Assembly (NCBI RefSeq): GCF_007018965.1
Contig: NZ_VJYZ01000013.1
Span: forward strand, 60,066 to 124,065
Source: Paracoccus marinus
GTDB lineage: Bacteria > Pseudomonadota > Alphaproteobacteria > Rhodobacterales > Rhodobacteraceae
Reading direction: 5' to 3'
DNA: 64,000 nucleotides
Shown here: piece by piece, positions 3,387 to 30,455 of the stretch
Layout: every line of letters begins with the position of its first letter
How positions within the stretch are numbered: the first letter of the stretch is position 1
Position numbers and translations under genes: made by a program
Notes under the pieces: generated by a model
What the model was told of the DNA's origin: nothing
The model's database searches: none
What the model saw: the letters and a program-made list of their open reading frames with translations, nothing else

Positions 3387-4676
3387 ATGAAAACCCTCGT
3401 GCGCGGCCGCGTCCTGACCTTCCATGCCGATCCGGCCGACAGCGCCGACAATCACGACTACCACGAGAACGGCGCGATCCTGATCGACGCGGGCCGGATC
3501 GTCGCGGTGGGCGACCACGCCGACGTGGCGGCCCGCGCCGACGCGGCCGGCGCGGCCCTGATCGACCACCGGCCCCACATCGTCATGCCCGGCTTCATCG
3601 ACCCGCACATCCACTTTCCGCAAGTGCAGGTGATCGCGAGCTGGGGCGAGCAGTTGCTTGACTGGCTCAACACCTACACCTTCCCGGCCGAGCTGAAGTT
3701 CGCGGACGCGGCCCACGCGGGCGCGATGGCGGGCGCGTTCCTGGACCTGCTGCTGGCACATGGAACGACGACGGCCTGCGCCTTCTGTTCGGTCCACCCG
3801 GAAAGCGCCGAGGCGCTGTTCGCGGGCGCGCAGGCGCGCGGCATGGCGATGGTCGCGGGCAAGGTGATGATGGACCGGAACGCGCCGGACGGCCTTCTGG
3901 ACACCCCGCAGCGGGGCTATGACGAGACCACGGCGCTGATCGCCCGCTGGCACGGGCGCGACCGGCTGCGCTACGCGATCTCGCCCCGCTTCGCGATCAC
4001 CTCGACGCCGGAACAGTTGCGCGCGGCGGGGACGCTGGCGGCCGAGCATCCCGGCCTGCACGTGCAAACGCATCTCAGCGAGAACCGCGCGGAAATCGAC
4101 TTCACCCTGTCGCTGTATCCGCAGGCGCGCGACTACCTCGACGTCTATGACCGCGAGGGGCTGCTGGGTCCGCGCACGCTGATGGGCCACGCGATCCACC
4201 TGGGTGCGCGCGAGCTTGCGCGCATGGCGGACACCGGGACGCGGGCGATCCACTGCCCAACCTCGAACCTGTTCCTCGGCTCGGGCCTTTTCGACGATCA
4301 TTCGGCGCGCGCGGCGGGCGTGGTCACCGGCGTCGCCACCGACATCGGCGCGGGCACCAGCTATTCGATGCTGGCGACGCTGAACGAGGCCTACAAGATC
4401 GCGCAGTTGCAGGGCCGGCCGATGCACCCGCTGCAGGCGTTTCACTGGGCCACGCGCGGCAACGCCATCGCGCTGGGGATGGAGGACGAGATCGGCCGGA
4501 TCGCCCCCGGCCGCCACGCCGACCTCGTGGTGCTGGACCCGCGCGCGACGCCCGCGATGGCGCTTCGCGCCGACGCGGCGGGATCGCTGGCGGAGGAGCT
4601 GTTCATCCTGCAGATCATGGGCGACGACCGGGCGGTGGCGCAGACCTATGTGCAGGGGCGGGCGATGAAGGGGTGA
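3387..4676 (+). CDS. guaD: Guanine deaminase
   Basis: This 429-residue amidohydrolase converts guanine to xanthine plus ammonia and so feeds the upstream xanthine dehydrogenase. The metal-binding GFIDPHIHFPQ motif lies near residue 70, QTHLSEN near residue 227, GHAIHL near residue 265, HCPTSNLFLGSG near residue 290 and the catalytic aspartate of ATDIGAG near residue 317, all in the order seen in GuaD. Length matches the family (430-450). The ATG is 17 bases after xdhC with CCCGGAG upstream, so it is probably the last gene of the xdhABC-guaD operon. It acts in the cytoplasm and needs zinc. Confidence 0.94.
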   Translation: MKTLVRGRVLTFHADPADSADNHDYHENGAILIDAGRIVAVGDHADVAARADAAGAALIDHRPHIVMPGFIDPHIHFPQVQVIASWGEQLLDWLNTYTFPAELKFADAAHAGAMAGAFLDLLLAHGTTTACAFCSVHPESAEALFAGAQARGMAMVAGKVMMDRNAPDGLLDTPQRGYDETTALIARWHGRDRLRYAISPRFAITSTPEQLRAAGTLAAEHPGLHVQTHLSENRAEIDFTLSLYPQARDYLDVYDREGLLGPRTLMGHAIHLGARELARMADTGTRAIHCPTSNLFLGSGLFDDHSARAAGVVTGVATDIGAGTSYSMLATLNEAYKIAQLQGRPMHPLQAFHWATRGNAIALGMEDEIGRIAPGRHADLVVLDPRATPAMALRADAAGSLAEELFILQIMGDDRAVAQTYVQGRAMKG

Positions 4677-4688
4677 TCGCAGCCGCCG

Positions 4689-4701
4689 CTTATGATATAA
4701 G
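4689..4701 (+). promoter_or_regulatory. AT-rich palindrome upstream of the 4737 gene
   Basis: CTTAT-GAT-ATAAG is a perfect 5-base inverted repeat around a 3-base centre, set in otherwise GC-rich DNA between guaD and the next gene. It could hold a -10 element (TATGAT or GATATA) or a small operator for the 166-residue gene. Only the sequence itself supports this. Confidence 0.25.
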
Positions 4702-4736
4702 AATCGCACCACGTTCGTTCTGGAAGGAGCGAGGAA

Positions 4737-5237
4737 ATGGTCGGTTTCACGGCCAGTTGGGTGCATGGGAATGCGGTGGTCGCCGAAAGTCCCCCGGCAG
4801 AGGACGGCGGTCTTCTCAACTTCAATCACTACGGCTGGGGTACGCAGATCACGATGCGTCCGGGATTCGCGCGCTGGTTCCACATTGCGATCCCCTCGCC
4901 CGTGATCCTGAACGGCGCGCGGATGAAGCTGATCCGGGTGTTCCTCGGGTTCCGGCAGATCGCGGGCTTCCGCAACGCGGGCACGATCCAGGACGTGCAT
5001 CTGTGGGATGCCGGGCAGCGGATCGCGATGCTGTCGAACCGCGACTTCGTCAATGCGCCCGCCGCGCGGATCGACGGCTACCGGACTTGCGAACTGCGTG
5101 AACCGAGGCCGTGGGGGTTCGGCGTCGGCGTCTCGTTCCGGCTGTCGGCGCTGCCCTATCTCGAAGGTCACTTCATCGAGAACAGGGACGCGCCGGTGAT
5201 CGTCATCGGCTCGGCCGGGGCGGATTTCGAGCCCTAG
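4737..5237 (+). CDS. Conserved protein of unknown function, resembling the DUF6623 family
   Basis: The 166-residue product has no signal peptide or membrane segment. It has a WVHGN motif near the N-terminus, a YGWGTQ segment, RWFHIAIPSPVI near residue 45, and VHLWDAGQRI near residue 88, a pattern of short beta strands. From memory this order (WVHGN, GWGT, WFHIPIPTPVI, VxDG) matches proteins labelled DUF6623, whose function is not known. A strong AAGGAG site lies about 12 bases upstream. It is 60 bases after guaD and tail-to-tail with the cupin gene, 4 bases apart, so it may or may not be part of the purine operon. No function is proposed. Confidence 0.72.
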   Translation: MVGFTASWVHGNAVVAESPPAEDGGLLNFNHYGWGTQITMRPGFARWFHIAIPSPVILNGARMKLIRVFLGFRQIAGFRNAGTIQDVHLWDAGQRIAMLSNRDFVNAPAARIDGYRTCELREPRPWGFGVGVSFRLSALPYLEGHFIENRDAPVIVIGSAGADFEP

Positions 5238-5241
5238 CCGC

Positions 5242-6138
<897 letters not shown>

Positions 6139-6191
6139 GTCCAAGCTCCTGTAAGTTGGCGGCGCCCGCACCGGGGGTTTCCACCCCCGGA

Positions 6192-6257
6192 CCCCCGGAG
6201 GATACTTGGGCAAAGAAGAACCTCGCACGTTCTTCTTTGACGAAATATCCCGGGGGA
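6192..6257. repeat. Long imperfect palindromic intergenic element (REP-like)
   Basis: The core is a perfect 11-base inverted repeat, CAAAGAAGAAC at 6211-6221 and GTTCTTCTTTG at 6229-6239, around a 7-base loop. It is flanked by an outer imperfect arm pair: CCCCCGGAGGATA at 6192-6204 against TATCCCGGGGG ending at 6257. The whole could fold into a stem of roughly 30 pairs on either strand. It lies between two genes of the same direction (cupin and allantoinase fusion). From memory, related CCCCCGGAGTATTT/AAGAAGAA elements recur between genes in Rhodobacterales genomes, so it may be a dispersed repeat or a transcript-end structure. Confidence 0.6.
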
Positions 6258-6274
6258 GGCGCGCATCGCGCGGC

Positions 6275-6289
6275 GGGGGCAGCGCCCCC
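6275..6289 (-). terminator. GC hairpin just after the allantoinase fusion gene
   Basis: GGGGGC-AGC-GCCCCC is a perfect 6-base stem with a 3-base loop, 9-23 bases beyond the stop codon of the minus-strand gene that ends at 6298. There is no T-run, so it may stabilise the transcript end or help termination only together with the larger palindrome beside it. Confidence 0.4.
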
Positions 6290-6297
6290 GTCCTGTT

Positions 6298-7701
6298 TCA
6301 GTCCAGCATCGCCTTTAGCCGCAACTCGCCGATCCGTGCGACCTGGCGTTCCGCCTCGGTCCGTTCGGTGGCGGTGTCGTTGTCGAGGCGGCGGGTCATC
6401 GCCGCCATGATCCCCGCCTTGTCGTGGTCGCGGACCGCGATGATGAAGGGAAAGCCGTGGCGGGCGACATACGCCTCGTTCAGGCGGGTGAAGCCGGACC
6501 GTTCAGCGTCGGTCAGGGCGTCGAGCCCGGCGCTTGCCTGTTCGGCGCTGCTGTCGGCGGTCAGGCGCTTCGCGGCCGCGAGCTTGCCGGCGAGGTCGGG
6601 GTGGGCCCGCAGGACGCCCAGGCGGTCGTCGTCGCCGGCGGCGCGGAACTGGCGCGCCATCGCGGCGGCGAGACCCGCGGCGCTGTCGTGGGCGGCGCCC
6701 ATTTCGGCGTCCCAGGTGCGTTCCGCGACCCAGGGCGAGTGTTCGTAGATCGACCCGAAGCGAGCGACAAATGCGTCGCGGTCCATCTGCGACGGGCGCT
6801 CGGCGGCGGCGAAGGGGTGCGTCACCATCCAGTGCCGGGCGATGTCGAGCCGGGTCGCGAACCACACGCCGTCATGCGCGCGCACATGGTCGAGGAACCG
6901 CCGCACACCCTCGGCCCGGCCCGGCCGCCCGGCGAGGCGGCAGTGAAGGCCGATCGACAGCATCCGAGGGCGGCCCTGCGCGCCCTCGCGGTAAAGGCAG
7001 TCGAAGGCGTCGCGCAGGTAGATGAAGAACTCCTCGCCGTTGGTGAAGCCGCCATTGGCGAAGCGCATGTCGTTGGCGTCGAGCGTGTAGGGCACGATCA
7101 GCTGCGGCCGCCCGTCATGGATGTGCCAATAGGGCAGCTCGTCGGCATAGCTGTCGGCAAGATAGGCAAAGCCCCCCTCCTCGCAACCCAGCGCGACCGT
7201 GTTCATCGACGCGCGGCCCTGGTAGAACCCCTGCGGCCGCGACCCGGTGACCTGGGTGTGCAATTCCACGGCGCGGGCGATGTGGTCCGCCTCGACCTCG
7301 CGCGGGACATCCTTGTAGTCGATCCACTTCAGCCCGTGGGTCGCCATTTCCCAGCCCGCGTCGATCATCGCGCGGGTCTGTTCGGGGCTGCGGGCCAGCG
7401 CGGTCGCGACGCCGTAGCAGGTGACAGGGATCCCTTCGAGCAGGCGGTAGAGCCGCCAGAACCCGGCCCGCGCGCCGTAGTCGTAGATCGATTCCATGTT
7501 CCAGTGCCGCTGCCCGGGCCAGGGCTGCGCGCCCACGATCTCGGACAGGAACGCCTCGGACGCGGCGTCGCCGTGCTCGACCGAGTTCTCGCCGCCCTCC
7601 TCGTAGTTCACCACGATCTGGACGGCGATGCGGGCGCCCCCCGGCCAGGCCGGGTCGGGCGCGACCTCGCCGTGCCCGCGCATGTCGCGGCTGTAACGCA
7701 T
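6298..7701 (-). CDS. puuE: Allantoinase (PuuE type) fused to OHCU decarboxylase (UraD)
   Basis: This is a two-domain fusion of 467 residues. Residues 1-300 are a polysaccharide-deacetylase-like PuuE domain that hydrolyses allantoin to allantoate, recognised by VNYEEGGENS near residue 31, NMESIYDYG near residue 67 and the ATHGLKW segment. Residues 310-467 are a UraD domain, which decarboxylates OHCU to (S)-allantoin: it keeps the catalytic histidine in YEHSPWVAE, the AHPDLAGK motif and the terminal PFIIAVR strand. Joining the two would couple allantoin formation to its hydrolysis. Such fusions are known in Rhodobacterales and relatives. The gene diverges from the purine permease over a 202-base gap. 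Confidence 0.92.
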   Translation of the reverse strand: MRYSRDMRGHGEVAPDPAWPGGARIAVQIVVNYEEGGENSVEHGDAASEAFLSEIVGAQPWPGQRHWNMESIYDYGARAGFWRLYRLLEGIPVTCYGVATALARSPEQTRAMIDAGWEMATHGLKWIDYKDVPREVEADHIARAVELHTQVTGSRPQGFYQGRASMNTVALGCEEGGFAYLADSYADELPYWHIHDGRPQLIVPYTLDANDMRFANGGFTNGEEFFIYLRDAFDCLYREGAQGRPRMLSIGLHCRLAGRPGRAEGVRRFLDHVRAHDGVWFATRLDIARHWMVTHPFAAAERPSQMDRDAFVARFGSIYEHSPWVAERTWDAEMGAAHDSAAGLAAAMARQFRAAGDDDRLGVLRAHPDLAGKLAAAKRLTADSSAEQASAGLDALTDAERSGFTRLNEAYVARHGFPFIIAVRDHDKAGIMAAMTRRLDNDTATERTEAERQVARIGELRLKAMLD

Positions 7702-19768: not shown

Positions 19769-22724
19769 CCTGTCCGGCCTTTACGCGCTGCCTGCGGGCG
19801 TCGATTTCGCCGCGGCCTTTGCGGACGGGCTGATCGCCCGCATGGCCGCCCGCCCGCCCGAGGCGCTGGCGCAGGTCACGATCCACGCGAACTCGGGCCG
19901 GACCCTGACCGCACTTCGCGCCGCCTTCGAGACGCGGGGGCCGCTGCTGCTGCCGCGCCTGCGGCTGCTCGCGGACCTGGGCGCCGAGGGGGCGGATACG
20001 CCGCTGGCCGCGCCCCTTGCCCGCCGGATGCAGCTGGCGCGGCTGATCGAGGCGATCCCGCCCGACGCCCGCCCGGGCCAAAGCGTGCCGGAACTGGCCG
20101 CGACCCTGTCCGAGCTGATGGCCGAGATGCAGTCCGAAGGGCTTGGCGCGGACGCGCTGGACCGGATCGAGGCCGCCGAACACGCGGCCCACTGGCAGCG
20201 CGCGCTGGCCTTCCTGCGGATCGCGGCCGGGTTCCACCTGTCCGGCCCGCCCGTGGACCGCGAGGCGCGCCAGCGCCGCGCCGCCGAGCGGCTGGCGGCG
20301 GACTGGGCGGCGGGCCGCAACCTGCCCGACGCGCCGGTGATCGTCGCCGGATCGACGGGGTCGCATGGCGGCACGCGCCTGTTCATGCAGGCCGTCGCGG
20401 CGCTGCCCGACGGCGCGGTGGTGCTGCCGGGCTTCGACTTCGACACGCCGCAATCCGTCTGGGACCATCTCGACCAGGACGGCGACGCGCCCGACGACCA
20501 TCCGCAGGCGCGGTTCGCGCCCCTTGTCCGCCGCTTCGGCGCGCCGCGGCCGTGGACCGGCGCGCCCGCCCCCGATCCCGCGCGGGGCCGGCTGATCTCG
20601 CTGGCGCTCAGGCCCGCGCCGGTGACGGATCAGTGGATCGCCGAGGGGCCCGCCCTTGGCGATCTGGTCCACGCGACCCGGAACCTGACCCTGATCGAGG
20701 CCGAACATCCCGCGGCCGAGGCCGACGCGATCGCACTGGCGATCCGCGAGGCAATGGAGCGCGGCGAGGCCGTCACGCTGATCGCCGCGGACCGCACCGC
20801 CACGCGGCGGGTGCAGGCGGCGCTGGACCGCTGGCGGCTGATCGCGGACGACAGCGCCGGGCAGCCGCTGCCCCTGACCGCCGCCGGGCTGTTCCTGCGC
20901 CACGTCGCGCGGCTGTTCGGCCAGCCGCTGACCATCGACCGGCTGCTGGTGATCCTGAAGCACCCGCTGACGGCGACCGGCAGCGACGCCGTGCCGCGCA
21001 ACCTGCACCTGCTGCACACCCGCGACCTGGAACTGCATCTGCGCCGCCACGGCCCCGCCTTTCCCGACCGCGCGGCGCTGGACGCATGGGGCGCGCGCAA
21101 GCGCCCCGGCAGCGACACGCCCGACCCGGACCGGCTGGCCTGGGCGGGCTGGGTCGGGGCGATGCTGGACCGGATGCAGCCGCTGGCGCTGGACCGGGGG
21201 CCGCGCCCGCTGGCCGCGCGCCTGTCCGACCTGCGCGCGCTGGCCGAGGCGTGGGCGGCGGGCCCGGACGGCGACGCGCTGGCATCGCGGCTGTGGGACG
21301 CGCGTCCCGGGGAACTCGCCCGCGCGGTGATGGACCACATGGCCCTGCACGCGGGCGACGGCCCGGCCGCCACGCCCGGCGACATGACCGACCTGCTGAC
21401 CTCGCAACTGCAGGCGCAGGCCGTGCGGCAGGACGTGGCCGCGCATCCGCTGGTCCGGTTCCGCGGCCCGCGCGAGGCCCGGACCGAGGCGCGGGGCCTC
21501 GTGATCCTCGCCGGTCTGAACGAGGGCGCGTGGCCGCAGCCCCCCGCGCCCGACCCCTGGCTCAGCCGCCAGATGCGGCGGCAGGCGGGGCTGACCTCGC
21601 CCGAGCGGCGGATCGGGCTGTCCGCCCACGACTTCCAGATCGGCCTGTCGGCAAGGCGGGTGATCCTGACCCGCGCCCGGCGCAACGCCGAGGCCGAAAC
21701 GGTGCCCTCGCGCTGGCTGAACCGGCTTGCGAACCTCGTGCAGGGGCTGGGGGGCGACCAGAACGGCCCGCAGGCGCTGCGGGCGATGCGGGCGCGCGGG
21801 CAGGCGTGGCTCGACATGGCCGCGACGCTGCGGACGCCCGCGCAAGCCACGCCGCCGGAACCCCGGCCCTCGCCGATCCCGCCGCCCGGCTCGTTGCGCG
21901 ACCTGTCGGTGACCGGCGTCTCGACCCTGATCCGCGATCCTTACGCGATCTATGCGCGCAAGGTGCTGCGGCTGAACCCGCTGGATCCGATGCGGCCCCG
22001 GCCCGACGCGGCCGAACGCGGCAACGTGCTGCACGACATCGTCCGCGACTTCCTGACCCCGCCGCCCGCGCCGACCGACGGCCCCGCAGTCCTGCGCGAC
22101 CGGCTGATGGCGGCGACCGACCGGGTCCTTGCCCGCGACGTGCCGTGGCCCGCGATGCGGCTGTTCTGGCGCGCGCGGATCGCCCGAATCGCCGACCGGC
22201 TGGCCGCCGACGAACACGCGCGGCTGCAACTGGGCCGCCCCGCCGTGATCGAGGAACGCCACGCCGTGACCCACCCGATCGGCGGCGCGGACTTCACGCT
22301 GACCGCGCGGCCCGACCGGATCGACCACCTGCACGACGGGACCGCCCACGTCTATGACTACAAGTCGGGCAGCCCGCCCACCGACCCGCAGATCCGCGCC
22401 TTTGAAAAGCAGTTGCCGCTGGAGGCCGCGATGATCCAGCGCGGCTGGCTGGGCGAGCGGCGCTGCGTGTCGGGCACCAGCTACATCCGGCTGGGCGGCG
22501 ACGGCGAGACGATGGACCGCGACTGCCCGCCCGACTTCATCGACGAGACGTGGGACAAGTTCGTGGCGCTGGTCACCGCCTATGTCACGGGGGCCGCGGG
22601 CTTTACCGCGCGCGCCGCGCCGATGACGGTGAACGAACGCGGCGACTTCGACGGGATCTCGCGGTTCGGGGAATGGACGCTGGCCGACATGGCCGTGCCG
22701 GGAAAGGTGGGCCATCATGGATGA
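19761..22724 (+). CDS. addB: AddB, double-strand break repair nuclease subunit
   Basis: AddB is the second subunit of the alphaproteobacterial AddAB helicase-nuclease that resects DNA ends for RecA, the functional counterpart of RecBCD. The 987-residue protein carries a C-terminal PD-(D/E)XK nuclease domain with the VYDYKSGSPPTDPQ motif near residue 875 and an upstream ERGNVLHDIVRDF helix, as in the family. Superfamily-1-like segments occur in the N-terminal half but no intact P-loop is obvious near the start, as expected for this clade. It overlaps murU and addA by 8 bases each, so all three are co-translated. Confidence 0.93.
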   Translation: MADLSGLYALPAGVDFAAAFADGLIARMAARPPEALAQVTIHANSGRTLTALRAAFETRGPLLLPRLRLLADLGAEGADTPLAAPLARRMQLARLIEAIPPDARPGQSVPELAATLSELMAEMQSEGLGADALDRIEAAEHAAHWQRALAFLRIAAGFHLSGPPVDREARQRRAAERLAADWAAGRNLPDAPVIVAGSTGSHGGTRLFMQAVAALPDGAVVLPGFDFDTPQSVWDHLDQDGDAPDDHPQARFAPLVRRFGAPRPWTGAPAPDPARGRLISLALRPAPVTDQWIAEGPALGDLVHATRNLTLIEAEHPAAEADAIALAIREAMERGEAVTLIAADRTATRRVQAALDRWRLIADDSAGQPLPLTAAGLFLRHVARLFGQPLTIDRLLVILKHPLTATGSDAVPRNLHLLHTRDLELHLRRHGPAFPDRAALDAWGARKRPGSDTPDPDRLAWAGWVGAMLDRMQPLALDRGPRPLAARLSDLRALAEAWAAGPDGDALASRLWDARPGELARAVMDHMALHAGDGPAATPGDMTDLLTSQLQAQAVRQDVAAHPLVRFRGPREARTEARGLVILAGLNEGAWPQPPAPDPWLSRQMRRQAGLTSPERRIGLSAHDFQIGLSARRVILTRARRNAEAETVPSRWLNRLANLVQGLGGDQNGPQALRAMRARGQAWLDMAATLRTPAQATPPEPRPSPIPPPGSLRDLSVTGVSTLIRDPYAIYARKVLRLNPLDPMRPRPDAAERGNVLHDIVRDFLTPPPAPTDGPAVLRDRLMAATDRVLARDVPWPAMRLFWRARIARIADRLAADEHARLQLGRPAVIEERHAVTHPIGGADFTLTARPDRIDHLHDGTAHVYDYKSGSPPTDPQIRAFEKQLPLEAAMIQRGWLGERRCVSGTSYIRLGGDGETMDRDCPPDFIDETWDKFVALVTAYVTGAAGFTARAAPMTVNERGDFDGISRFGEWTLADMAVPGKVGHHG

Positions 22725-25700
22725 ACGGATGCCCGCGACCGGGACGGTAGATGGTGGTGATGCGCCGCTGGACGACGCCACCCGCGCGCAGCGGACGGCG
22801 GCCGATCCGGGGCGGTCCACCTGGCTTACCGCCAACGCGGGCTCGGGCAAGACCCGCGTCCTGACCGACCGCGTGGCGCGGCTTCTGCTGGGCGGGACCC
22901 GGCCCGAACGCATCCTGTGCCTGACCTACACCAAGGCCGCCGCGTCCGAGATGCAGAACCGCCTGCTGGCGCGGCTGGGCGGCTGGGCGATGCTGCCCGA
23001 CGAGGCGCTGCGGGCCGAGCTTGCCCATCTGGGGATCGCGGGCGCCCCCGACCTGCGGGCCGCGCGGCGCCTGTTCGCGCAGGCGATCGAGACGCCGGGC
23101 GGGTTGAAGGTCCAGACGATCCACAGCTTCTGCGCCGCCGTCCTGCGCCGCTTTCCGCTGGAAGCCGGGGTGCCGCACGGGTTTTCAGAACTCGACGACC
23201 GCTCGGCCGCGAACCTGCGGGCCGAGATCCTCGAATCCATGGCGCTGGACGGGGTGGCAAGCCTGAACGGCATCGCGATGCTGCTGAGCGAGGACCGGCT
23301 GGACGCATTCCTGGCCGGGCTTCGCGATCACGACCTGCCGCCCTGCGCCGACCGCATCTGGTCGCAGGCGGAGCTTTCGCCCGGCTATTCGCAAGGCAGC
23401 CTGCTGGCCGAGGTGTTTCCGGGCGGCGATTGCCTGGTGATCGCGGCGATGATCCCGCATCTGCTGGCCAGCGGAACGAACGACGGCAAGGCCGGGCGGA
23501 CGCTGGCCGTGGGCCGCTGGGACGCGCCGACCATGGCCGAGCTGGCGCTGCTGGAGGACGTGCTGCTGTACGGCGACAAGGCGGCAAGCCCCTTCGGCGC
23601 CAAGATCGGCAAGTTCCCGACCCAAGGGCTGGCCAAGGGACCGTGCGCGGCGCTGATGGACGACCTGATCCACCTCATGGGGCGGGTCGAGGGCGCACGG
23701 GGACGCAGGCTGGCGCTCGCCCATGCCGAGCGGACGCTGGCGCTGCAGGCCTTTGGGCACGATTTCTGCGCGCGCTACACGGCGGCGAAGCAGGCGCAGG
23801 GCTGGCTGGATTTCGACGACCTCATCAGCCGCACGGCGCGGCTGTTGTCGGACGGCGCGATGGCGCAGTGGGTGCTGTTCCGGCTGGACGGCGGGATCGA
23901 CCACATCCTGGTGGACGAGGCGCAGGACACCTCGCCCGGCCAGTGGCAGGTGATCGAACGGCTGACCGACGAATTCACCGCCGGCGCGGGCGCGCGGGGG
24001 GATGGCGGCGGCGGCCCTGGGTCGGGCCAGCGGACGCTGTTCGTGGTGGGTGACCCGAAGCAGTCGATCTATTCCTTCCAGGGGGCCGACATCGCCGTGT
24101 TCGAGCAGCGGCGCACCGGCTTCACGGCCGCCTTCTCGGTCCTCGATCCGCCGATGCAGCACGCGGCGCTGGAACATTCGTTCCGGTCCTCGCCCGCGAT
24201 CCTGTCGGTGGTGGACGCGGTCTTTGCAGGCGACGCCGCGCGCGGCCTGGGCGTGCCGCCCCACCACATTCCGTTCCGCACCGCGATGCCCGGCCGCGTC
24301 GATCTGTGGCCCGCCGTGCCGAAGCCCGACCGCGCCGAGCCCGCCGACTGGGCCGCCCCGGTGGACGCGCCCACGCCCGATTCCGCCGAAACCGTGCTGG
24401 CCGACGCGATCGCCCGCCAGATCGCCGCCATGCGCGGCCAGCCGATCCTGCCCGCGCGTGGCGGGGCCGTGCGCCCGGTCCGGGCGGGCGACATCCTGAT
24501 CCTCGTCCAGCGGCGCAGCGCGCTGTTTCCCGAACTCATCCGCGCGCTCAAGGCGAGGGGCCTGCCGGTGGCGGGCGCCGACCGCCTGAAGCTCGCCGCC
24601 GAAATGGCGGTGCGCGACATCCGCGCCGTGCTGTCGTTCCTGGCCACGCCCGAGGACGACCTGGCGCTTGCCACCGCGCTCCGCTCGCCGCTGTTCGGGC
24701 TGAGCGAGGACCAGCTTTACCGCCTTGCCGCGCCGCGCAAGGGCCGGCTGTGGCCCGCGCTGAGGAACGATGCCGCCCATCGCGGGGTGGTGGACCTGCT
24801 GGCCGACCTGCAGGAACAGGCCGACTTCATCCGCCCCCACGACCTGATCGCCCGCCTGCTGGTGCGCCACGGCGGGCGCGAACGGCTGGTCGGCCGGCTG
24901 GGCCACGAGGCCGAGGACGGGATCGACGCGCTGCTGTCGCAGGCGCTGACCTACGAGGCGGCGGAACCTCCGTCGCTGACCGGGTTCCTCGTCTGGCTGG
25001 CCGAGGACGACGCCGAGATCCGCCGCCAGCCGGGCGCCGCGGGCGAAGGCGAGGGGCTGATCCGGGTGATGACGGTCCACGGCGCCAAGGGGCTGGAAAG
25101 CCCGATCGTGATCCTGCCCGACACCGCCGTGCGCGGCGCCAGCCACGACGCCCCCACGATCACCCCGCCCGAGGGGCCACCTGCGGTCTGGCGCGGCCGC
25201 AAGGCCGAACGCCCCGCCACCATCGCCGCCTGGGCCACGCGCGAGGCGGAGCGGCGGGAAGAGGAAAACCGCCGGCTTCTCTACGTCGCGATGACGCGGG
25301 CGGAAAGTTGGCTGATCGTGGCCGCGGCGGGCAAGACCGGCGCGGGCGAGGACAGCTGGCACGCCATGGTCGCGGCCGGGATGGACCGGGCCACGGGGCT
25401 GGACGAAGCCGAGACCGAGATCGAAGGCGTCGGCCCCGCCCGCCGCCTGTCGTTCGGCGCATGGCCCGCGCAGGCGGCGGCCGATGCCGACGTTGCACCT
25501 GCGGACCCCACGGTGCTGCCCGCGTGGGCGCTTGCCATCCCGCCCGCACCCGCGCGAAAGGCCCCGCGGATCGCCGCGACGGCGCTCGGCGGGGCCAAGG
25601 CGATCGCGTCGGGCGATCGCGGGATCGACGCCGAGGCCGCGCGGGCCGAGGCGATGCTGGCCGGCACCCGCCTGCACCTGCTGCTGGAGGAACTGCCCGG

Positions 25701-26163
25701 CCGCGACCCCGCGCGGTGGCCCGCGCTGGCCCGCGCGGCCCTGTCCGGGGCCGAAGGCGGCCTGCCCGACGACCCGACCCTCGCCGCGCTCATCGACGAG
25801 GCGGCAGCGGTGATCGGCGCCGAGGCGCTGGCCCCCGCCTTTACCCCCGCCGGCGCGACTGTCCTGCGCGAGGTGCCGCTGGCCGCCGACATCCCCGGCC
25901 TGGGCCCCCTGTCGGGCACGATCGACCGGCTTCTGGTCCTGCCCGACCGCGTCGTCGCCATCGACTACAAGTCCAACGCCGAGGTGCCAGCCACGCCCCG
26001 CGACGTGCCGGACGGCATCCTGCGCCAGATGGCCGCCTACCGCGCCGCGCTGACGCTGATCTACCCCGGCAGGCGGATCGATGCGGCGGTGCTGTGGACC
26101 ACCGCGCGGTCGCTGATGGACCTGCCGGACGAGGTGCTGGAGGCGGCGCTGGCGCGGCGGTAG
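22717..26163 (+). CDS. addA: AddA, UvrD-type helicase/nuclease subunit
   Basis: The 1148-residue motor subunit of AddAB shows every expected landmark: P-loop TANAGSGKTRVLTDRVARLL cut near residues 34-50, CLTYTKAAASEM (motif Ia), VDEAQDTSPGQWQ (motif II) near residue 405, GDPKQSIYSFQGAD (motif III), VMTVHGAKGLE (motif V) near residue 785, LLYVAMTRA (motif VI) and the nuclease motif AIDYKSNAEV near residue 1085. It translocates along DNA and degrades ends until a recombination hotspot. In relatives trxA usually follows directly; here three low-GC orphan genes lie between addA and trxA. Confidence 0.96.
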   Translation: MDERMPATGTVDGGDAPLDDATRAQRTAADPGRSTWLTANAGSGKTRVLTDRVARLLLGGTRPERILCLTYTKAAASEMQNRLLARLGGWAMLPDEALRAELAHLGIAGAPDLRAARRLFAQAIETPGGLKVQTIHSFCAAVLRRFPLEAGVPHGFSELDDRSAANLRAEILESMALDGVASLNGIAMLLSEDRLDAFLAGLRDHDLPPCADRIWSQAELSPGYSQGSLLAEVFPGGDCLVIAAMIPHLLASGTNDGKAGRTLAVGRWDAPTMAELALLEDVLLYGDKAASPFGAKIGKFPTQGLAKGPCAALMDDLIHLMGRVEGARGRRLALAHAERTLALQAFGHDFCARYTAAKQAQGWLDFDDLISRTARLLSDGAMAQWVLFRLDGGIDHILVDEAQDTSPGQWQVIERLTDEFTAGAGARGDGGGGPGSGQRTLFVVGDPKQSIYSFQGADIAVFEQRRTGFTAAFSVLDPPMQHAALEHSFRSSPAILSVVDAVFAGDAARGLGVPPHHIPFRTAMPGRVDLWPAVPKPDRAEPADWAAPVDAPTPDSAETVLADAIARQIAAMRGQPILPARGGAVRPVRAGDILILVQRRSALFPELIRALKARGLPVAGADRLKLAAEMAVRDIRAVLSFLATPEDDLALATALRSPLFGLSEDQLYRLAAPRKGRLWPALRNDAAHRGVVDLLADLQEQADFIRPHDLIARLLVRHGGRERLVGRLGHEAEDGIDALLSQALTYEAAEPPSLTGFLVWLAEDDAEIRRQPGAAGEGEGLIRVMTVHGAKGLESPIVILPDTAVRGASHDAPTITPPEGPPAVWRGRKAERPATIAAWATREAERREEENRRLLYVAMTRAESWLIVAAAGKTGAGEDSWHAMVAAGMDRATGLDEAETEIEGVGPARRLSFGAWPAQAAADADVAPADPTVLPAWALAIPPAPARKAPRIAATALGGAKAIASGDRGIDAEAARAEAMLAGTRLHLLLEELPGRDPARWPALARAALSGAEGGLPDDPTLAALIDEAAAVIGAEALAPAFTPAGATVLREVPLAADIPGLGPLSGTIDRLLVLPDRVVAIDYKSNAEVPATPRDVPDGILRQMAAYRAALTLIYPGRRIDAAVLWTTARSLMDLPDEVLEAALARR

Positions 26164-26265
26164 GCGGATGCGGGGCGCGGCGGAAAAGCGCCCGCGGCTG
26201 GTAGTGTCACGGAACTGACGCGAAGCGATGCCAGCGTAAGCGGCGTATTGGGTTAGGGTATTTTC

Positions 26266-26535
26266 ATGCAGGATGTTCCGTGCGGCACCGCGCCTGCCGC
26301 TGGTCGGGAAATGACCGATCCCGAAATGCTCGATTTGCTGGAAAAGCAGATCACAAAGCTCGCATTAGCCGGGGCCAATGTACGGCAAACGGCAGAGTTC
26401 TTGAGGGTCGGCGAATGGCTCCTCGCGTATGAAGGCGTGTACGTGCTGAACCGGAAGCATCCGGGCATCCTTGTCGCGTGCGATATGCAGGCGCTGAACG
26501 ACTATTTTGATGAGGATATGTCGGACCTGGATTGA
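26266..26535 (+). CDS. Small orphan protein: stand-alone copy of the C-terminal domain of the two Im-fusion proteins
   Basis: The 89-residue protein consists mainly of one domain (residues about 17-83) with the pattern EMLDLLEKQITKL, FLRVGEWLLAYEGVYV, HPGIL and ALNDYF. About half of these positions are identical to the C-terminal domain of each of the two following genes. The pattern GEWxLAYE after two helices reminds me of small MafI-type immunity proteins, but that is a weak resemblance from memory. AGGG lies 8 bases before the ATG; an internal ATG at 26311 would give just the domain. Base composition is much less GC-rich than addA next door, pointing to acquisition by transfer. Confidence 0.72.
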   Translation: MQDVPCGTAPAAGREMTDPEMLDLLEKQITKLALAGANVRQTAEFLRVGEWLLAYEGVYVLNRKHPGILVACDMQALNDYFDEDMSDLD

Positions 26536-26584
26536 GTTGCCTTGTGCACACTAAAGTCCAACGCGTGACACAGGGCCTTTGTCT

Positions 26585-27154
26585 ATGACCGTTTTTCTCG
26601 CAAAAAGCAGTGTTGTAGAGTTCACCCGTCAGGAGTTTCTGGACTTCATTTGTTTCATCGCATCCGTCCCGGGCAAAACACAAGCAGAGAACAACAAGTA
26701 CAAGTTCCATTTCAGTGAGCTGGTAAAGCCTGATCCTCGGGGATGTGACATAATTTTCTGGCCCGAACCCGGCACCGATTCGCCGGAAAAAATGCTTGAA
26801 GAGGTCGAACGCTTTCGTCGTGAAAACAATCTGCCGGGATTCAAGGACAGCGTCGACGCGAGGCGGCATGATGGAAACAACCTGCCCGATGCAGCAACAG
26901 TGTCTGCTTACGTCACTGTTCCTCCACGACTGACTAAATCCGAAATGATCCATTTGCTAGAGGTTCAAATCGCCAAGCTTCACAAAGCCGGCGCCGATAT
27001 GTCCGTGGAACAGAGATGCTTCCGGGTCGGAAATTGGGTTTCTGCTTTCGAATTCGTCTTCGTGACGGAACGGCAGTTTCCGGGCGTCCTCGACGCAGGG
27101 GACGTGGAGGCATTGAACAAGTATTTCCGTCAAGGTGCAAAGGAACTGTATTGA
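26585..27154 (+). CDS. Composite immunity-like protein 1: Im2/Im9-type DNase immunity domain plus second domain
   Basis: Residues 8-89 of this 189-residue protein align along their whole length with colicin E-type and S-pyocin immunity proteins such as Im9: FTRQEFLDFICFIA for helix I, a HF in helix II, PDPRGCDIIFWPEPGTDSP for loop and helix III, and a VERFRRENNLPGFKDS end matching the family VKQWRxxNGxxGFK. The aspartate equal to Im9 Asp51 is kept, while the hot-spot pair Tyr54-Tyr55 is Phe-Trp. After a linker (90-115) comes the same domain as in the upstream gene (FRVGNWVSAFEF, FPGVLDAGDVEALNKYF). Im proteins bind and block a cognate nuclease toxin in the cytoplasm; no toxin is nearby. A TTG at 26579 is an alternative start. 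Confidence 0.85.
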   Translation: MTVFLAKSSVVEFTRQEFLDFICFIASVPGKTQAENNKYKFHFSELVKPDPRGCDIIFWPEPGTDSPEKMLEEVERFRRENNLPGFKDSVDARRHDGNNLPDAATVSAYVTVPPRLTKSEMIHLLEVQIAKLHKAGADMSVEQRCFRVGNWVSAFEFVFVTERQFPGVLDAGDVEALNKYFRQGAKELY

Positions 27155-27735
27155 TAACGAGAAAGAAGGCAGTGAAGAAATGAAGAGGTTTCGTCGGAAT
27201 GACTACCTTGAGAAGCGCACCATATCCGACTTTACGCGCGGTGAGTTTCTTGACTTCATAAAGTTCATCGGGACCGCACCCGGAAAGACAGAAGCCGAAA
27301 ACGACCGCTGGGTTACTCACTTCGACAAGCTGGTCTATCCCGATCCGCGCAGGAACAGGATCCTTTTCTGGCCCGAGCCGGGTAAGGACTCGCCAGAGAA
27401 GATGCTGGAGGAAGTCGAGCGCTTTCGACTTGAGAACAACTTGCCGGGGTTCAAGGACAGCGTCGACGCGAGGCGGCACGATGTGGACAATTTGTCCGAT
27501 GCAGCAACGGCGCCTGCTTACGCAAATGTTCCTCCACGACTGACGAAATCAGAAATGATCCATTCGCTGGAGGTTCAGATCGCCAAGCTTCACGAAGCCG
27601 GCGCGGACATGTCTATGGATCAGCAGTTCTTCCGGGGCAAAAATTGGGTTTCTGCTTTTGAAGGCGTCTTCGTAACTGACCGGAAGTTTCCGGGCGTCCT
27701 CGACGCAGGTGACGTGGAGGCTCTGGACAGGTTTT
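26817..27735 (+). repeat. Tandem duplication spanning the two composite immunity genes
   Basis: The stretch 26817-27125 (end of the Im domain, linker and second domain of gene 1) and 27417-27735 of gene 2 are highly similar at the nucleotide level. They share long identical runs such as TTCAAGGACAGCGTCGACGC and AGGTTCA-ATCGCCAAGCTTCAC with scattered substitutions. The 5-prime parts that encode helices I-II are clearly more different. This indicates a fairly recent gene duplication followed by local divergence or exchange in the 5-prime part. Confidence 0.85.
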
Positions 27736-27764
27736 TCCGTGAGGGTGGGTTGTCAACAGACTGA
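27180..27764 (+). CDS. Composite immunity-like protein 2: Im2/Im9-type domain plus second domain
   Basis: This 194-residue paralogue begins 26 bases after the previous gene, with AAGG-AGTGAAG upstream of the ATG. The Im domain spans about residues 13-94 and the second domain about 122-188, joined by the same linker (VDARRHD-NL-DAAT). Compared with its neighbour, the segment covering helices I-II and the following loop (residues 18-64) differs at about 18 of 47 positions, but the next 37 residues (helices III-IV) at only about 2. At the position of Im9 Asp51, an essential nuclease contact, it has arginine (Arg60). So it probably has another partner or has lost binding. Lower GC than flanking genes. 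Confidence 0.85.
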   Translation: MKRFRRNDYLEKRTISDFTRGEFLDFIKFIGTAPGKTEAENDRWVTHFDKLVYPDPRRNRILFWPEPGKDSPEKMLEEVERFRLENNLPGFKDSVDARRHDVDNLSDAATAPAYANVPPRLTKSEMIHSLEVQIAKLHEAGADMSMDQQFFRGKNWVSAFEGVFVTDRKFPGVLDAGDVEALDRFFREGGLSTD

Positions 27765-27889
27765 GCGTGCGGGAAGCGTTCGTCCGGCCGTGAAGCGCGG
27801 TTGTTCAACCGCCCATCCCCGGCCTTGACCGGACGCCCCCGCCTTCCTAGCTGTAAGCCAACCCCATCCCGGTCACCGAGGAGCATTCC

Positions 27890-28210
27890 ATGGCTACCCA
27901 ACACGCCACCGACGCCGATTTCGACAGCGTCGTGCGCCAGTCCGACACCCCCGTCGTCGTCGATTTCTGGGCCGAATGGTGCGGCCCCTGCCGCCAGATC
28001 GGCCCGGCGCTGGAGGAACTCGCCGCGGAATACGGCGGCAAGGTCAAGATCGTGAAGGTCAACGTCGACGAGAACCCGGACTCGCCCGCCCAGCTGGGCG
28101 TTCGCGGCATCCCGGCGCTGTTCCTGTTCAAGGACGGGCAGGTTGTGTCGAACAAGATCGGGGCGGCGCCGAAGGCCTCGCTCAAGGCCTGGATCGACGA
28201 GAACGTCTGA
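27890..28210 (+). CDS. trxA: Thioredoxin
   Basis: The 106-residue protein is a full single-domain thioredoxin with the redox motif [13 protein letters not shown] at residues 24-36, the buried aspartate of VVDFWAEW, a KVNVDENP strand, the cis-proline segment [11 protein letters not shown] and a C-terminal amphipathic helix. It reduces protein disulfides in the cytoplasm and serves as electron donor to reductases. It starts after a GGAG site (CGAGGAGCATTCC) and ends 7 bases before a convergent gene. Its GC content returns to the genomic level, marking the right edge of the low-GC patch. The addAB-trxA order is usual in relatives. Confidence 0.96.
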
Positions 28211-29225: not shown

Positions 29226-29783
29226 ATGGCTGACGACAGGTTCCCCGGCTGGCATGGCACCACCATTCTCGCGGTCCGGCGCGGCGGGCGGGTGGTGGTC
29301 GCGGGCGACGGGCAGGTAAGCGTCGGGCAGACGGTGATGAAGGGCACGGCGCGCAAGGTCCGCCGCCTGTCGCCGGGCGGGCGCGACGTGGTGGTGGGCT
29401 TCGCCGGATCGACCGCCGACGCCTTTACTCTGCTGGAGCGGCTGGAAAAGAAGCTCGAGGCCGCGCCGGGCCAGTTGCAGCGCGCCTGCGTCGAGCTGGC
29501 CAAGGACTGGCGCACCGACAAGTACCTGCGGAACCTGGAAGCGATGCTGATCGTGACCGACGGCGCGCAGCTTTACGTCGTGACCGGAGCCGGCGACGTG
29601 CTGGAACCCGAACACGACGTGGCCGCGATCGGCTCGGGCGGCAACTTCGCGCTGGCCGCCGCGCGCGGCCTGATGGAAACCGACCTTGACGGTGAGACGG
29701 TCGCCCGCCGCGCGATGGCGATCGCGGCCGACATCTGCGTCTACACCAACGGCAATCTCACGGTCGAGGTGATCGGGGCCTAA
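29226..29783 (+). CDS. hslV: HslV, ATP-dependent protease peptidase subunit
   Basis: HslV forms the proteolytic double ring of the HslVU (ClpYQ) protease. The 185-residue protein carries a short propeptide ([11 protein letters not shown]) before the catalytic threonine of [24 protein letters not shown] cut here at the conserved GDGQV; removal of 11 residues would expose the N-terminal Thr. [10 protein letters not shown] and [16 protein letters not shown] follow as in the family. GGAGG lies 7 bases upstream. In most relatives hslU follows closely in the same operon. Here 670 bases with an antisense brnTA pair separate them, and the hslV stop overlaps the brnA stop tail to tail. Confidence 0.95.
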
Positions 29784-30067
29784 CCGGCCTTGCGGGCTTG
29801 CATGTAGGCCCGCAAGACCGCGTTCATTCGGGTCTGATAGCCCTTACCCTCGGCCCGGAAAAAATCCAACACATCGGGATCTACCCGCAGCGAGATCGCC
29901 TTCTTCGCTTGGGGAAGCACTAGAACGGCGCTGTCCCAATCAATCTCGAAATCATCTTCATCCTCTCCCTCAAACTCGCCTTCACGGCGAAGGCGGTCCA
30001 GATCAGTCTGGTCCGTCATCTGCTGGATTTCGTCGAGCGTATATGTCTTGTAGCTTGACTCGCTCAT
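29780..30067 (-). CDS. brnA: BrnA-type antitoxin
   Basis: The 95-residue protein fits BrnA, the antitoxin and autorepressor of BrnTA type II systems. The N-terminal YTLDEIQQM matches the typical R-YT-EEL--M start; the acidic middle ([19 protein letters not shown]) corresponds to the toxin-wrapping part; the C-terminal half is a ribbon-helix-helix-like DNA-binding segment ([34 protein letters not shown], cut). It overlaps the end of the toxin gene by 65 bases in another frame, more than usual, which suggests translational coupling. The start at 30067 is favoured because it includes the conserved YT-EE segment; an internal ATG at 30019 is possible. Confidence 0.85.
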
Positions 30068-30314
30068 TTCGCCGGGCCCTCCGAGCAGTGATAACGCGGA
30101 TCGCCGAGCCGCGCCTGGTAAACACGAACACGACTGCCACGTCATCCAGAAGTCCGATCGCAATCTCACGTGCCTCGGCCTCGCTGCGCGCAGTCACAAC
30201 GACATGTGGCCCAGCGAAGAACCCCGGCGCACGCACGAAATCGATCCCGTGCTTCTCGATCGTGGCAAGCCGCTTGGCTTCGTTCCACTCGTATCTGACA
30301 TCGTCTTCGGACAT
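30003..30314 (-). CDS. brnT: BrnT-type ribonuclease toxin
   Basis: BrnT is a RelE-like ribonuclease that arrests translation when free of BrnA. The 103-residue protein has the hallmark opening [19 protein letters not shown] near residue 8 (family YEWDxxKxxxNxxKHGVDF), a central [12 protein letters not shown] segment and the strand [25 protein letters not shown], with the basic residues expected for catalysis. Length is a little above the usual 90-95. It lies first in the minus-strand operon and divergent from hslU across 141 bases. The ATG at 30314 has no strong ribosome-binding site. Confidence 0.88.
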
Positions 30315-30366
30315 TGCTGTTCCCATCTTTGCCGGAGAACGAGCGCACGTCCTGCGCGACTCATGA

Positions 30367-30397
30367 AGTTGTATATACCAACTGTAAGTCTGCAGTT
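30367..30397. promoter_or_regulatory. Candidate BrnA operator/promoter region between brnT and hslU
   Basis: An AT-rich patch holds two adjacent inverted repeats: AGTTG-TATATAC-CAACT (30367-30383) and AACTG-N8-CAGTT (30380-30397). It lies 53-83 bases upstream of the brnT start and upstream of hslU. BrnA is known to bind palindromes at its own promoter, so these are the best candidates. If used, BrnA could also influence hslU, which is transcribed in the other direction. Confidence 0.42.
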
Positions 30398-30455
30398 CCA
30401 CCCCTTCAAGGGCCCTGCTGCTCGGCTTATTTCCTTAGGAACTAAGGAGACGCAC

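Follow-up and report, generated by a model that had tools for sequence, protein, structure and literature searches.

The window analyzed here is a stretch of 64,000 nucleotides from Paracoccus marinus (contig NZ_VJYZ01000013.1, positions 60,066 to 124,065). It contains three small genes between addA and trxA that appear to form an immunity locus without a toxin gene. Gene 1 encodes a single small domain, here called D2. Genes 2 and 3 each encode an Im-type nuclease immunity domain joined to D2. On balance, we favor the reading that each fusion blocks two unrelated nuclease toxins, HNH deoxyribonucleases (DNases) through its Im domain and MuF-EndoU ribonucleases (RNases) through D2. Each chain carries two apparent immunity domains, Im by its profile match and D2 by the gene position of its relatives, and the fusions are probably two-headed polyimmunity proteins. 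The layout of the locus and its domain content are far beyond chance.

All three genes are on the forward strand; the spaces between them measure 49 and 25 bp and contain no toxin gene. They occupy the 1,726 bp from the addA stop to the trxA start (26164..27889). Gene 1 (26266-26535) encodes 89 amino acids. Its likely start is an inner ATG at 26311 (74 amino acids), at which the free-standing D2 relatives begin in the alignment. Gene 2 (26585-27154) encodes 189 amino acids from its ATG, with the TTG at 26579 as an alternative start. Gene 3 (27180-27764) encodes 194 amino acids from its ATG, in a frame that opens with the GTG at 27135. The GC content of the gene parts is 0.49-0.59, compared with 0.74 for addA and 0.70 for the window, which agrees with the initial annotation of three tandem low-GC genes between addA and trxA. 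The flanking genes were identified by domain content: addA (22717-26163) encodes UvrD helicase and PDDEXK domains, and trxA (27890-28210) encodes a thioredoxin domain. No promoter-like site was found in 26164..27889, and terminator-like sites there were at the level of shuffled sequence.

The Im domain covers residues 7-87 of the gene 2 protein (26603..26845, +) and residues 12-92 of the gene 3 protein (27213..27455, +). Both match positions 2-82 of the 82 in PF01320, the family of the colicin and pyocin DNase immunity proteins (Im2, Im7, Im9, pyocin AP41 and S2). The match scored 54.4 bits for gene 2 (E = 1.3e-14) and 61.2 bits for gene 3 (E = 1e-16), above the curated cut-off of 21.2 bits. 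The initial annotation had proposed an Im2/Im9-type N-terminal domain, aligned end to end in genes 2 and 3, with a hidden Markov model comparison against PF01320 as a check. That comparison bears the assignment out, and the Im motifs it named are present in the window proteins. A sequence search with gene 3 also matched solved structures of Im2, Im9, Im7 and pyocin immunity proteins (best E = 1.9e-13). The solved PF01320 relatives are chains of about 82-124 residues, whereas the Im domain of the window is fused to D2. It also has FW as the helix III aromatic pair where the colicin Im proteins have YY.

A linker of about 27 residues joins the Im domain to D2, which lies at 26930..27151 in gene 2 and at 27540..27761 in gene 3 (both +). 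Both were matched by the D2 profile in the genome search. Gene 1 aligns solely with this second domain (43-45% amino acid identity), so its earlier description as the second domain alone holds. The earlier description of a separate fused domain also stands, but its length is about 75 residues, not about 65. The D2 family had no match in Pfam, PHROGs or PADLOC at the thresholds used. None of the 83 D2 protein clusters listed in a search with 23 D2 rows carried a precomputed Pfam domain. A D2 profile built from the window sequences found no relative in the genomes or viral contigs scanned; with two genus relatives added, it found 12 genome loci and 10 viral loci. D2 was present in 3 of 101 genus genomes by profile search. 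It was strong in 6 of 390 order genomes, including the window's own, and the single match among 385 class genomes was the window's own. In all, 18 of the 390 order genomes matched at E <= 0.01, and 12 of these matches (E = 7e-4 to 0.01) were set aside as probable chance. A scan with the D2 subfamily nearest gene 1 returned solely contigs already known.

Free-standing D2 genes point to a partner. The 29 D2 locus records (L008-L036) represent 22 distinct loci after identical sequences were merged (L010, L011, L020 and L032 with L009; L021 with L013; L033 with L026; L034 with L030). An EndoU RNase domain is encoded directly upstream of D2, on the same strand, in 13 of the 22. These loci are in Rhodobacterales prophages, with MuF-type head genes. 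Three of the 13 are exceptional: the EndoU frame is broken in L030, the MuF gene is split in L008, and L016 begins at a contig end. The EndoU and D2 genes overlap by 4 bp in P. sanguinis and are separated by 3-8 bp in L008, L018, L023, L026 and L036. The P. sanguinis gene in front of D2 encodes an intact protein of 545 amino acids with Phage_Mu_F (E = 1.2e-12) and EndoU (E = 4.4e-13) domains. L035 contains an EndoU scrap (the last 26 of 107 residues) before D2, and the 3.2 kb read there showed no MuF match. From the toxin side, 7 of 12 EndoU loci in viral contigs were close relatives (84-100%), and all 7 had D2 behind; these contigs had already been found by the D2 scan. Because free-standing D2 genes lie directly behind MuF-EndoU genes in prophages, D2 probably provides immunity against MuF-EndoU toxins. 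This is also what came of a search for the second domain in other immunity contexts, which had been suggested initially. In L008, from a genus relative, genes that look by eye like transposase genes lie inside the MuF-EndoU gene (6353-7581), and the EndoU part and D2 are still present downstream.

Two described systems resemble this arrangement. Passages of PMC5576092 describe MuF polymorphic toxins of temperate phages, with EndoU among their tips and a small open reading frame behind that is proposed as immunity. One such pair is reported there as homologous to a MafB toxin-immunity module. The small frame (<150 amino acids) directly behind MuF toxins corresponds to free-standing D2 in the 13 loci; the D2 genes of the window are chromosomal and have no MuF gene. 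Those passages mention no D2 family, no Rhodobacterales and no immunity fusion. In Neisseria, MafI copurifies with the EndoU toxin MafB and blocks its RNase activity, according to part of PMC4287609. The MafI gene, like free-standing D2 genes, is short and immediately follows that of an EndoU toxin, but the toxin body is MafB in that case and MuF in the case of D2. The MafI model NF033691 gave 12.8 bits for gene 1, below its cut-off of 31, and listed 9 of 23 D2 members (best E = 0.035). This sequence likeness is weak, and D2 is not assigned to the MafI family. By analogy with MafI, the D2 head would bind and block the EndoU tip. The Im head would bind a Col-Pyo-type DNase, and both heads would function in one chain. 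The benefit would be protection from the bacteriocins of competitors and from toxins released or injected by the prophages of neighbors.

The initial annotation had offered two options for the second domain, a second toxin type or an adaptor. The two-target option is favored by D2 behind MuF-EndoU genes, and the adaptor option is kept as a weaker rival. Under that rival, the Im head alone neutralizes a toxin, and D2 is an accessory for dimerization, stability or recruitment that was borrowed from an immunity gene. The divergence of the fusion D2s from phage D2 would fit an accessory. We consider it unlikely, since D2 stands by itself both in this locus, as gene 1, and in many phages. Isolated D2 is also predicted to fold alone with high confidence (predicted local distance difference test score, 96.6), and the D2s of the window, those of the fusions included, keep the conserved positions of the family.

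Several observations weigh against immunity to both toxin types. On the Im side, an aspartate in helix III is important in colicin Im proteins. Its place is taken by D in gene 2 and by R in gene 3, and the Im head of the latter fusion may be altered. The full-length model, a test of the four-helix Im fold, had low confidence in the Im half (six aligned rows). No DNase of the Col-Pyo type turned up in this clade. On the D2 side, the D2s of the window are 45-51% identical to those of P. sanguinis and L008 and 35-42% identical to that of L036. At 35-51% identity to phage D2s, the D2 target of the window proteins may have changed. Three distant MuF-EndoU proteins from viral contigs (43-44%) are followed by a small gene other than D2. 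Another gene, x116, separates the MuF gene from D2 in 8 of the 22 loci, and D2 is retained there without an adjacent EndoU. Viral contigs with x116 had D2 behind it in four of four cases, one of these contigs being new.

x116 is about 115 codons long and lies behind the MuF tip (L015:4611-4961; also L017, L019, L022, L024, L025, L028 and L031). It had no Pfam or PHROGs match over the cut-off. In seven of the eight loci, the MuF body continues up to GPNIV and is followed by another tip in place of EndoU, then by x116, with D2 further downstream. The tips were translated in these seven; L019 was left out, its MuF match being on the other strand. The alternative tip weakly resembles the colicin E5 RNase (E = 0.087, short of the cut-off). 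These loci and the four viral contigs would fit a D2 that accompanies MuF proteins generally, either as a chaperone or as immunity independent of the EndoU tip. We regard that as improbable. D2 directly follows EndoU tips, whereas x116 directly follows the other tip and D2 comes later; L035 has D2 and an EndoU scrap with no MuF match; and the three distant MuF-EndoU proteins lack D2. Because of the same order of genes, EndoU-D2 and the other tip with x116 fit two exchangeable toxin-immunity cassettes, in which a displaced toxin leaves its immunity gene behind. Displacement of this kind is described for Vibrio type VI secretion system (T6SS) arrays in part of PMC5361080. x116 is a candidate for a second immunity family.

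Other loci vary this arrangement. L036 contains an x116 relative after EndoU-D2, and L030 contains a tip-like stretch between D2 and an x116 relative. L022 has x116, x116, D2, x116 and D2 behind one MuF gene (4599-6838), a small prophage polyimmunity array. The viral EndoU loci without D2 were the three distant ones and two very weak ones (35%). A gene of about 97 amino acids directly follows those of more distant MuF-type (VG15) proteins whose tip is EndoU (L086:3406-3699 and L088:3382-3672). The two copies are 75% identical to each other and matched nothing in Pfam or NCBIfam at E <= 1. This gene is a candidate for a further immunity family. It was rejected as a D2 relative, with a profile comparison probability of 0.1%, which is a weak test since one profile had two rows.

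The genome of the window (38 contigs, 99.73% complete) had no match to Col-Pyo DNase (PF21431) or bacterial EndoU (PF14436) at E <= 1 and none to MuF (PF04233) at E <= 0.01; a toxin outside these contigs or of another family is possible. PF01320 proteins usually adjoin their cognate toxin gene, whereas the window genes have no such partner within these contigs, in keeping with the initial annotation of a stand-alone defense. PF01320 had no match in the genome beyond the window genes. The single match among 394 family genomes, and likewise the single one among 385 class genomes, was the window's own. Among 31 genus genomes searched, 30 had a trxA match. The 29 besides the window's own all had addA next to trxA, with a gap of 74-114 bp between alignment ends. 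The three-gene segment was probably acquired, given the short gap in 29 of 29 relatives, its low GC content and the lack of PF01320 in 393 and 384 other genomes.

Four more Im-D2 fusions were found among 5.8 billion proteins. They are metagenomic, 187-198 amino acids long and 70-95% identical. Some relatives (P0003, P0006 and P0007) have altered ends or are shortened. P0007 is a shortened gene 1 relative (56 amino acids) and is listed for 45 contigs, far above other gene 1 relatives. The altered relatives and the missing toxin would suit a locus of decaying immunity remnants without present function. This has a low probability in our view. All three frames are open, four fusion relatives are intact elsewhere, and dN is 0.20 against a dS of 1.06 between genes 2 and 3 (nonsynonymous and synonymous divergence over the whole length, a rough estimate, since the Im parts by themselves gave no dS value). 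Im-D2 relatives were found neither in viral contigs by scan nor in phage records with gene 3. Gene 3 matched 733 plasmid records, none covering 80% of it. Among the 20 plasmid records listed, an immunity protein was annotated in all 20, with an adjoining HNH endonuclease in 19. The two heads go together in genes 2 and 3 and in the other four fusions, which could also reflect a single bifunctional toxin with DNase and RNase domains. This is highly improbable: none of the proteins seen combined the two toxin domains, the single intact MuF protein that was scanned has EndoU alone, and the viral contigs gave no Im-D2 relative.

Genes 2 and 3 differ most in their Im heads. Over residues 8-57 they are 57% identical in amino acids and 59% identical in nucleotides; over D2 the values are 79% and 84%. 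Where the two proteins share a residue, the sharpest step in synonymous changes comes near residue 90 of gene 3, close to where the Im domain ends (z = 4.5; 0 of 5,000 shuffles; Fisher p = 0.0007-0.03 across four fixed cuts). A direct repeat of 300 nt, 83% identical, starts in the second half of the Im domain and reaches into D2, with copy 1 at 26754..27053 in gene 2 and copy 2 at 27364-27663 in gene 3 (both +). In colicin immunity proteins, specificity lies in the helix I-II region. The sequences can fairly be read as Im heads of differing specificity on a common D2 body. Homogenization of the 3' part of genes 2 and 3 is another reading, and a comparison of two sequences cannot separate it from head exchange. 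In the proposed history, an EndoU-immunity gene and an Im gene would have met, fused and been duplicated. The Im heads would then have diverged or been exchanged on the shared D2 body. Recombination between tandem paralogous immunity genes through conserved blocks is described in part of PMC9484751. The arrays there and in PMC5361080 consist, in the parts describing them, of type VII secretion system and T6SS immunity genes, respectively; in the window, Im heads differ on a shared D2 within fused proteins.

Polyimmunity proteins and loci are a described kind. Zhang et al. 2012 (PMC3482391), in the part on these loci, describe short toxin-less operons and propose them as ready-made cover against the toxins of others. 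Such loci consist of two or three closely spaced immunity genes in tandem on one strand, uninterrupted by a toxin gene, and the window locus fits this description. The joined domains named in that part (section 39) are SUKH, SuFu, Imm-Ank, Imm5, Imm11, Imm13, Imm33, Imm34, Imm36 and Imm66-69; the list includes neither Im (Imm-ColE7) nor D2. Among the literature matches listed, mostly open papers, no title or abstract contained the Im and D2 pairing or the D2 family. The initial annotation knew of no description of such a fusion. This holds for the pairing within those matches, but polyimmunity proteins as a kind have been known since 2012.

The proposal gives a small family without a match over threshold in Pfam, PHROGs or PADLOC a likely partner, the EndoU tips of phage head proteins, and places a textbook Im domain in a two-domain protein. 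It raises the question of whether a single protein can counter a DNase bacteriocin as well as a phage-head RNase. It also raises the question of whether prophage-free cells use the fusion against the phages of their neighbors. More tentatively, and with considerable doubt, the locus may provide one chromosomal antidote against bacteriocin DNases and phage-head RNases at once. D2 would then be a host-owned defense against phage-injected MuF-EndoU, and Im would be swapped on a fixed D2 to follow changing DNases.

The window contains a second stretch of lowered GC content, just before hslU (named by eye). At 29780-30401 on the reverse strand it encodes a toxin-antitoxin pair, BrnT (PF04365) and BrnA (PF14384), each matched at E = 2.6e-19.
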